Assembly: GCA_023248995.1 (NCBI GenBank)
Contig: JAHFDN010000025.1
Span: 1-33,262, forward strand
Direction: 5' to 3'
Source: Candidatus Rokuibacteriota bacterium
GTDB lineage: Bacteria; Methylomirabilota; Methylomirabilia; Rokubacteriales; CSP1-6
DNA length: 33,262 bases
Shown: positions 17,191-26,674 of the stretch, piece after piece
Position numbering within the stretch: the first letter of the stretch is position 1
Layout: every line of letters starts with the position of its first letter
The notes under the pieces: model-generated
What the model was told of the DNA's origin: nothing
Database searches by the model: none
What the model saw: only the letters and a program-made list of their open reading frames with translations
Position numbers and translations under genes: made by a program

Positions 17191-18249
17191 TCATCCGCCG
17201 CCTGCCGGGGCTCGCTCGGTCTCGTAGAGGTAGAGAGCGGCGCCCCCCAGCACGGCGGCCCGCTTGTCCAGGGACAGCAAGCTGATCCGCGTCGTGACCA
17301 GGGCGCGCCTGAAGGCGTACTCGGCGACCCAGCCGAGGACCCTGGACTCCAGCGGGATCAGCGACTCGGCCACCCCGCCCGTCACCAGTACGACCTCCGG
17401 ATTCAGGGCGTTGACGATGACTGCCAGCCCCGCCGCCAGCGCCTGGCAGATCTCCTCCACCAGGACCCGGGCTCCGGCGTGGCCGGCGCGCGCCGCCTGG
17501 AACACCGCCGGGGCGCCGACGTCCGGCCCGAGGTCGGGGAGGTCCCGGCGCGCGCGCTCGGCGATCTCCCGCCCGGACACGTAACTGTCGAGCCACCCCC
17601 GGCCGAAGGCGGACGTCTTCGGCGCATCGAAGTTGATGGGAACGCAACCAATCTCCCCGCCGTAGCCGCCTTCGCCGCGGACGAGGCGGCCGTCCAGGAT
17701 GATCCCGCCGCCGACGCCGGTCCCGAGCGCCAGGAGGACGAGAGAGCGGGTTCCCCGGCCGGCGCCGAAGAGCCACTGGCCCAGGGCGAGGAGGTTCACG
17801 TCGTTGTCCACTCGCGCGCGGAGGCCGTAGCGGGCGGCGAGACGATCGGCGAGCGCACAGCCCGCCAGCTCGGGCACGTTCTTGATGTCCTCTCCCACGA
17901 TCCCGCGCGCCGCGTCCACGACGCCGGGCACGCCGGCGCCGATGGCGAGGAGCGTGATTCCCTGCGCCTTGGCCATCGCCACGAGCTCATCGGCCAGGTC
18001 GAAGATCGTCCCGAGCGCCCCGCCACGCTCCGCCGCGTGGGTAGGCGCCTGGGAGTGCGCAAGCGTCTCGCCCTCAGGCGTGACGAGTCCGGCCGCCGTG
18101 ACGCTTCCGCCGACGTCGAGGCATAGAATCGCCTCACGACCCGAGCCACGTAAAGTGGCTCGGGTGCCCGCGGAGGTGGCTCGCCTCCGCTCGCGACGAC
18201 CCGCGCCAGTAGCGCGGGTGCCCGCAGGGGTCGCTCGCTTCGCTCGCAT
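17191..18249 (-). CDS. ROK-family protein (sugar kinase-like) with repeat-derived N-terminus
   Basis: A 352-residue protein. The ROK core starts at about residue 41: ILCLDVGGSVTAAGLV (phosphate loop), VPGVVDAARG, VDNDVNLLALGQWLFG (catalytic Asp region), VLLALGTGVGGGIILDG and VLVTGGVAESL. The usual zinc site (His plus CxCGxxGC after GGEIG) is absent: the sequence reads YGGEIGCVPINFDAPKTSAFGRGWL, so kinase activity is less certain. Residues 2-40 are basic, Arg/Ala/Thr/Gly-rich, and contain a 20-residue repeat (RATPAGTRATGAG, RATSAGTRATLRG) encoded by two palindromic DNA elements. No ATG, GTG or TTG occurs between them and the core, so ATG 18249 must be used. That ATG is 1 nt after the deacetylase stop, giving translational coupling. 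Confidence 0.86.
   Translation of the reverse strand: MRAKRATPAGTRATGAGRRERRRATSAGTRATLRGSGREAILCLDVGGSVTAAGLVTPEGETLAHSQAPTHAAERGGALGTIFDLADELVAMAKAQGITLLAIGAGVPGVVDAARGIVGEDIKNVPELAGCALADRLAARYGLRARVDNDVNLLALGQWLFGAGRGTRSLVLLALGTGVGGGIILDGRLVRGEGGYGGEIGCVPINFDAPKTSAFGRGWLDSYVSGREIAERARRDLPDLGPDVGAPAVFQAARAGHAGARVLVEEICQALAAGLAVIVNALNPEVVLVTGGVAESLIPLESRVLGWVAEYAFRRALVTTRISLLSLDKRAAVLGGAALYLYETERAPAGGG
18139..18246 (-). repeat. Tandem pair of palindromic elements inside the ROK coding region
   Basis: Unit A: ACCCGAGCCAC (18139-18149), GTAAA loop, GTGGCTCGGGT (18155-18165), then CGGAGG/CCTCCG (18171-18176 with 18184-18189). Unit B, 60 nt further: ACCCGCGC (18199-18206), CAGTA loop, GCGCGGGT (18212-18219), then GCCCGC and TCGCTCGCTTCGCTCGC. 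Both units share the order hairpin, GCCCGC, GGNGG-type arm, GCTCG. The 60-nt period keeps the reading frame and gives a 20-aa protein repeat. Confidence 0.8.
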
Positions 18250-18250
18250 G

Positions 18251-19003
18251 TCACTCAAGATGGCCGAAGTGGCCGAGCCGGATGCCGCGCGCGTCCACGC
18301 TCTCGCGCACCCGGGGATCGGTGAGCCCCTCGAGCTCCACCTCGCGCTGCGGGCCGTAGCGGCTCCCCGCGAGGTCCGGGTCGAAGTAGCCCGGGTGGGT
18401 CATGAACTCGGACACGCCGTCCGGCAGCGAGGCCAGATGCGCCAGGAGACGCTCGGACGACCAGTAGGCCTCCGGGCCGGACTCGCCCATGAAGTGATCC
18501 GGCGTCCTGAGCTTGAGCCGCCGCGCGGCGGCCCGGACCAGGGCGTCCTGGCTCCTCACCGGCACCCTGATGGCTTGCGCGAACTCCAGGATCAGCGCCA
18601 GGATCGGCTCGTGGCGCCCCACGTGGTGGTGACTGTCGAGATGGGTGGGAAACCGTCCCATGAGCTTCCTGAACGCGTCGATCTGGGCGCCCAGCTCGAT
18701 ACGCGCCTCTTCGGCCTTGGCGCGCGCCGCCGCCTGCCGCGCGTCCCGCACGAACTTCCCCTCGCCGTCCACGAGCGAGGGCACGCGCCGGGGATCGGAG
18801 ACTGGAGCGCCGAGGGTCAGGTTCAGGTGGAGGCCCACGCCCAGGGCCGACGCCTTCAACGCCCCCACGAGCGCGAGATCCATCGGGCGGTTCACGAGCA
18901 TCGTGGTGCTGCTGACGATGCCCTTGCCATGCGCCTCCAGGATCCCCCGGCTCACACCGGCCGTCAGGCCGAAATCATCGGCGTTCACGATCAGACGCTT
19001 CAC
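18251..19003 (-). CDS. YdjC/ChbG/HpnK-family carbohydrate deacetylase
   Basis: A 250-residue polysaccharide-deacetylase-like enzyme that removes N-acetyl groups from amino-sugar substrates (chitooligosaccharide or hopanoid glycoside in named members). Motifs: RLIVNADDFGLTAGVSRGI (catalytic Asp pair), VGLHLNLTLGAPVS (metal His), THLDSHHHVGRHEPIL (metal His cluster), EFMTHPGYFDPDL near the end. All are intact. GTG 19003 starts inside the stop of the upstream methyltransferase (GTGA overlap), and its own TGA is 1 nt before the ROK start. A deacetylase beside a ROK protein suggests amino-sugar handling (inference). Confidence 0.93.
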   Translation of the reverse strand: MKRLIVNADDFGLTAGVSRGILEAHGKGIVSSTTMLVNRPMDLALVGALKASALGVGLHLNLTLGAPVSDPRRVPSLVDGEGKFVRDARQAAARAKAEEARIELGAQIDAFRKLMGRFPTHLDSHHHVGRHEPILALILEFAQAIRVPVRSQDALVRAAARRLKLRTPDHFMGESGPEAYWSSERLLAHLASLPDGVSEFMTHPGYFDPDLAGSRYGPQREVELEGLTDPRVRESVDARGIRLGHFGHLE

Positions 19004-26636: not shown

Positions 26637-26674
26637 CCCCCTCACCCCGACCCTCTCCCCATCGGGGAGAGGGG
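26637..26674. repeat. Palindromic C/T-rich intergenic element, copy 2
   Basis: CCCTCTCCCC (26651-26660), ATC, GGGGAGAGGG (26664-26673) is a perfect 10-bp hairpin preceded by CCCCCTCACCCC. It shares the CCTCTCCCC/GGGGAGAGG core and the adjacent CTCACC arm with the element at 12962-13009, but lacks the matching GGTGAGGGG arm on the right. Confidence 0.72.

Follow-up and report, generated by a model that had tools for sequence, protein, structure and literature searches.

Palindromic repeats in bacterial genes

The best-known palindromic repeats read in frame within proteins are those of Rickettsia, a genus for which genome decay is a frequent explanation. The Rickettsia RPE are short, dispersed palindromic sequences that at times lie in frame in conserved genes, N-termini included, and in these respects they resemble the repeat described here (PMC10969869, PMC2229807, PMC3733652). 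In-frame RPE fusions are described in reviews (PMC10969869, PMC2229807), and a guanylate kinase carrying an RPE insert is both made and active (PMC2229807). Di Nocera et al. (2013) described the GTAG and CGTC REPs and assigned RPE-4 and RPE-6 of Rickettsia to the CGTC group (PMC3733652). Like the present repeat, these are short stem-loops with alternative complementary stems, lie near gene ends and in some cases provide stop codons. Some copies are likewise intragenic, and REPs inside genes for UvrD/REP-type helicases are on record (PMC3733652). Many REPs at annotated N-termini may be untranslated, with the true start located downstream (PMC3733652). The ERIC, Correia and QMITE1 MITEs share another property with the present case: they are non-autonomous and contain open frames that become joined to ORFs of the host (PMC2229807, PMC10969869).

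The locus described here lies in a contig of 33,262 nt from an uncultured Rokubacteria (Methylomirabilota) genome, referred to as the window. We assign a probability of about 0.78 to the reading that a dispersed REP/MITE-like Rokubacteria repeat was inserted at the junction of a YdjC-like and a sugar-kinase-like ROK-family gene, and is read in frame as a tolerated, disordered tail of the ROK protein.

The YdjC/ROK junction

The two genes form an operon on the minus strand. The upstream YdjC-like gene (18251..19003; PF04794, E 6.2e-59) ends with a TGA stop codon (18251–18253) one base before the ATG at 18249, from which the ROK gene (17191..18249; PF00480, E 1.1e-42) encodes 352 aa. The ROK core begins at ~18132. 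The Pfam match is confined to this core, covering residues 45–343 of the ORF as numbered from TTG 18258. The closest named relatives of the protein are from Candidatus Rokubacteria/Rokuibacteriota MAGs, CSP1-6 among them. Judged by dN/dS values of 0.19–0.22 against the nearest orthologues, the core is under purifying selection, which argues that the gene is not silent debris; silence of the gene had been named by the initial annotation as fatal to its own reading.

The whole junction is occupied by a head-to-tail pair of hairpin units. Unit 1, nearest the ROK core, spans 18133..18196 on the plus strand with its hairpin (ACCCGAGCCAC-GTAAA-GTGGCTCGGGT) at 18139–18165; unit 2 spans 18193..18249 on the same strand with its hairpin (ACCCGCGC-CAGTA-GCGCGGGT) at 18199–18219. 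Covariance model R1 scores them at 70 bits (E 6.1e-13) and 68.4 bits (E 1.5e-12), respectively, both being members of its training set. The initial annotation had placed two related hairpins 60 nt apart between ATG 18249 and the core, and this arrangement is correct in coordinates and spacing. The right-hand parts common to both units (GGGTGCCCGC-RG-RGGT-S-GCTCGC) are separated by 54 nt, because hairpin 1 is longer by 6 nt. Both spacings are multiples of three, as the initial annotation had noted for the period. The region folds better than shuffled sequence (z -2.7), and no Rfam match was found in the window.

Read on the minus strand from ATG 18249, the units yield an Arg-rich, stop-free extension of 39 residues (18133..18249; MRAKRATPAGTRATGAGRRERRRATSAGTRATLRGSGRE), followed by the ROK core AILCLDVGG. 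The ATG itself derives from the right end of unit 2, GCTCGCAT. Between it and the core there is no in-frame ATG, GTG or TTG, and the sole in-frame alternative is TTG 18258, just upstream. Translation of the units as about 39 residues, which the initial annotation took to be necessary, is something that we infer. In shuffled copies a given frame is open in 78% of cases, so at such G+C an open frame over 110 nt says little by itself, and open frames were ruled out as proof of coding. The AlphaFold2 model gives a pLDDT below 50 and no secondary structure for residues 1–36, whereas most of the core exceeds 90. On this prediction the extension is in all likelihood disordered and tolerated by the protein.

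A dispersed repeat family

A 23-mer pattern taken from the window units only was found at 11 places in the 2.34-Mb genome, versus 0 with the reversed control. The repeat is not a product of chance. Copies were expected by the initial annotation to be recognizable in this genome and its relatives, and the unit does prove to be a dispersed family. Covariance model R1, built from 14 copies, identified 18 copies in the source genome (G000) at E <= 0.01, and 34 in G006, 24 in G020, 10 in G027, 9 in G017, 8 in G015 and 7 in G036; G025 has one borderline match, and a second scan added G077 with 11 copies. Seven relatives therefore carry 7–34 copies each, numbers that depend on model and threshold and refer to MAGs. 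At E <= 1e-4, carriers comprise 8 of 60 Rokubacteriales genomes, the source included, and the other 52 have none. The repeat thus occurs at dispersed sites in a number of uncultured bacteria from soil and groundwater.

The unit measures ~55–65 bp; its ACCC..GGGT hairpin leads into a GCTCGC-TTC-GCTCGC arm. The family consensus is CGACCC-hairpin-GGGTGCCCGnnGAGGTnGCTCGCyTTCGCTCGCG, also written CGACCC-hairpin-GGGTGCCCG-nn-GAGGT-n-GCTCGC-yTTC-GCTCGCG(C). Stems are of a short (CCGCAAGGG-type) and a long (GAGCCACnTAAAGTGGCTC-type) kind. In the 8-bp stem of the copies 97.3% of cells are paired, with 14 double-change cells, a level reached in 0 of 500 shuffles. By this comparison the stem is kept between copies through compensatory changes.

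The gene context of 78 copies was tallied with a simple, home-made codon-usage gene caller that reproduces the genes of the window; the resulting numbers are approximate for that reason. Most copies are intergenic (58), 16 lie over the 3' end of a gene, two within an ORF and two at a 5' end. The intergenic class includes the ROK loci themselves, since the caller favours a start within the core. The predominance of intergenic copies indicates a REP-like family with occasional overlap of genes rather than one specialized in invading proteins. In several cases, among them L099, L102, L112 and L160, a gene ends in the unit, which provides the stop codon (TAG, TAA or TGA, from the variable bases after GCCCG) and ~11 C-terminal residues.

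In-frame copies and the ROK orthologues

Among the ROK orthologues examined, the unit is present in three genomes only, in the same frame throughout: two units in G000 and one each in G006 and G015. The single unit of G006 and G015 is the counterpart of unit 1, and unit 2 is lacking in both. In these two genomes the ROK ATG overlaps the YdjC stop codon (TGATG). All other orthologues begin 0–7 codons before the core. Since the insert is missing from most orthologues, whose start lies immediately ahead of the core, the ROK insert is, on this comparison, acquired and not native. The amino acids encoded by the unit differ between genomes. G000 and G015 differ at 3 positions in 63 nt, which change two residues and leave the hairpin identical. 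What is conserved among the three carriers is, at the level of sequence, the DNA hairpin and not the peptide; the opposite pattern had been put forward by the initial annotation as evidence against insertion.

Further in-frame copies were found by comparison with orthologues that have no element, in PcrA, Smr and SDR proteins as in ROK. (i) An SDR dehydrogenase of the source genome has the N-terminus MRAERATSTGTRPLRSGRL-KGKVAIVTGAG, versus M(P/S)(G/D/E)RL-xGKVAIVTGAG in orthologues, and its first start codon is inside the repeat. (ii) A small Smr protein of the same genome begins MVVDPRG-SASEASIPFGHPPLAGGSDE-PVVVPIEDSLDLHAF, and the G006 Smr protein contains a related insert at the same position. 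(iii) In PcrA/UvrD of G020 the unit encodes a linker, SASEASHIYGHPSLEDGSLP, between UvrD_C, which ends at residue 462, and the tudor domain, which begins at 522; PcrA orthologues have different short linkers there. (iv) An 846-residue ORF of G006, assigned by Pfam only, has two CoA-transferase III domains bridged by an element-encoded stretch. The cases read different frames of the element, as expected under random insertion. When the SDR and Smr proteins are set against their orthologues, host sequence picks up directly after GTCG, which is also the element end; these two cases hint at a short target match.

It is extremely improbable that the extension represents an original N-terminal domain, for example a ROK-repressor helix-turn-helix, which most orthologues have lost. 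The frame is indeed kept in three genomes, but the same DNA unit occurs at unrelated loci, the Pfam match is limited to the core, and orthologues across the family start at the core. The native helix-turn-helix was rejected on the AlphaFold2 model, in which the tail is disordered and helix-free.

A leader function is less easily dismissed, though unlikely. The unit may be only a 5' mRNA hairpin, an untranslated element that regulates or stabilizes RNA, the repeat being extragenic and ROK starting at a rare codon just ahead of the core, for which an ATT immediately preceding the DVGG motif is one candidate. The 58 intergenic copies among 78 (subject to the home-made caller), the folding of the region and the many non-coding REPs at N-termini (PMC3733652) are consistent with this. 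It is opposed by the lack of any ATG, GTG or TTG downstream of the units, by the ROK ATG, which in each of the three carriers overlaps the YdjC stop or lies a single base away from it, and by the PcrA and CoA-transferase copies, which are internal to their ORFs.

Mosaic history of the operon

The operon (window 17191–19003, L045) is mosaic: its segments match different genera, and the change points are near the repeat. G000 falls with G006, G027 and JACPSW in the ROK tree, and G015 with G020. Compared segment by segment, the ROK core of G000 is 84% and 82% identical to those of G006 and G027, and 67% to that of G015. The upstream part of its YdjC gene shares 83% identity with G015 and 80% with G020, against 65% with G006 and G027. 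In G015 a patch of ~300 nt at the junction (the last 240 nt of YdjC and the first 57 nt of ROK) is 83–89% identical to the G006/G027 group, versus 61–68% further out.

This pattern bears on the possibility that the hairpin is kept by selection for a cis function in DNA or RNA, such as protein binding or processing of the operon mRNA, with the translated tail as a by-product. Between G000 and G015 the unit shows 95% identity, versus 72% for ROK core DNA, and stem changes are compensated among copies. Mosaic ancestry, however, allows horizontal exchange to explain this identity: the G015 patch lies at the junction itself, so that the high identity of the unit across genera can be explained by recombination there, and selection on the element is weakened as its cause. 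In addition, the close relatives G027 and JACPSW have no unit at the junction. A selected cis function is improbable. The unit may have been lost in G027 and JACPSW, or gained in G000 and G006 only.

A second palindromic family, CCCTCTCCCC-n-GGGGAGAG, is represented in the window at 26651–26673. It has 28 exact matches in the genome versus 0 for the reversed control, some of the 28 being one palindrome read on both strands. The PcrA linker of the source genome holds one copy of this CCCTCTCCCC-type repeat. In CSP1-6 (G027) and JACPSW (L074, L075) a repeat of the same type lengthens the YdjC C-terminus (..CHFGGLEPPHPPLSPWGRGEEVNGASGGS before the stop) at the same YdjC/ROK junction. The presence of an unrelated repeat at this position suggests that the junction is prone to insertion, as it seems to be from these sequences.

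Relation to known repeats and mobilization

The unit agrees with the general description of REPs in having dispersed stem-loop copies that are mainly intergenic and a compensated stem. In-frame insertion inside conserved protein genes, by which RPE are recognized, was found in PcrA, Smr, SDR and ROK, and by Pfam only in the CoA-transferase ORF. The initial annotation had suggested an RPE-like, new protein-invading family. In-frame copies in other proteins support it, whereas the mostly intergenic, REP-like distribution does not fit a family dedicated to protein invasion. RPE measure 105–150 bp (or are the CGTC-tagged RPE-4 and RPE-6) and belong to an A+T-rich intracellular genus; the Rokubacteria unit is 55–65 bp, G+C-rich, mostly intergenic and without a CGTC tag. 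Judged by the published descriptions the unit is not a Rickettsia RPE: it has neither a GTAG nor a CGTC tag, and no transposase was found linked to it.

The unit also differs from the GTAG/CGTC REPs. It has no GTAG or CGTC at the stem side, it forms head-to-tail pairs, an arrangement seldom seen in those families, and no RAYT gene carries it. No GTAG tag is present at the stem end of the aligned copies, which have CG before ACCC and GCCCG after GGGT. The CGTC REPs, as defined in PMC3733652, have a CGTC, TGTC or CCTC tag, two opening A/T pairs and a CCA-like tail. This combination was not found in the unit, whose stem opens with A–T and then C–G and bears no CGTC tag. From MITEs the unit is distinguished in that long terminal inverted repeats, TA ends and target duplication are not demonstrated. 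The literature searched, which covers the field in part, contained no earlier description of the unit in Rokubacteria. Absence of the tags, head-to-tail arrangement and lack of an earlier description together indicate a new, REP-like family; intragenic REPs as such are already known.

No mobilizing enzyme or linked transposase was found for the repeat. Y1_Tnp matches number one in G000 and two in G006, and five further carriers have none. Beside the RAYT (Y1_Tnp) genes of G000 and G006 no unit reaches significance (best E 0.047). The candidate RAYT mobilization was rejected on these grounds, and because the Y1_Tnp gene on contig C17 has an unrelated inverted repeat of its own. This Y1_Tnp-type gene of G000 (L072, C17:2209-2532) is flanked by GGGGTCAGGTCTTGCAATCC, and GGGGTCAG agrees with GGGGWSAS, a motif of TIRYT transposases (PMC3733652).

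Origin of the ROK tail

The following steps are proposed. (i) A unit would have been inserted at the YdjC/ROK junction; in G000 a second, diverged unit adjoins it head-to-tail. (ii) The outer end of the element (AT-GCGCGAGCG, minus strand) would supply an ATG beside the upstream stop codon, so that ROK is probably translated from within the repeat. (iii) The element is G+C-rich and hence has few stops, and would be read through in frame into ROK. (iv) The enzyme would thereby acquire a disordered tail of 22 residues (one unit) or 39 (two), which it tolerates. The best-supported view of this process is passive: a selfish or neutral repeat settles near gene ends, the ATG arises from a chance base pattern, and the stop-poor element is read through. 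As with translation of the ROK tail, we infer its neutrality and the mode of element movement.

A more active role is doubtful. The element could be a portable translation-start cassette that offers an ATG and an open frame, giving basic N-terminal tails to ROK and SDR, and could act as a recombination hotspot between lineages at occupied junctions. The bases that follow CGCTCGC at element ends are GCTT in 22 cases, GCGT in 19, GCAT in 12 and GCCT in three. The base that makes the ATG (GCAT) is not enriched, which argues against an evolved start-codon cassette; enrichment of ATG at the element end was accordingly rejected.

The initial interpretation of the locus is largely upheld, and the checks that it called for all came out in its favour. 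In-frame palindromic repeats would extend to a G+C-rich, probably free-living, uncultured phylum, in a helicase linker and several enzyme termini. Such an extension supports the idea that hairpin repeats of any kind, provided they contain few stop codons, can become part of proteins able to accommodate them. Annotators should also take note that what looks like an N-terminus or a linker in these genomes can consist of repeat DNA. The near-empty/filled pairs and the orthologue set allow the neutrality of such tails to be tested.

The ROK protein of the window departs from most orthologues in its zinc site as well. It has GEIGC in place of GE(L/I)GH, and the protein and its closest relatives, with GE(I/L)GC, lack the CWCGGRGC zinc-site cysteines common to most orthologues (residues ~197–220 of 352). 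Given this altered site, substrate or metal use may differ in the window ROK and its closest relatives.
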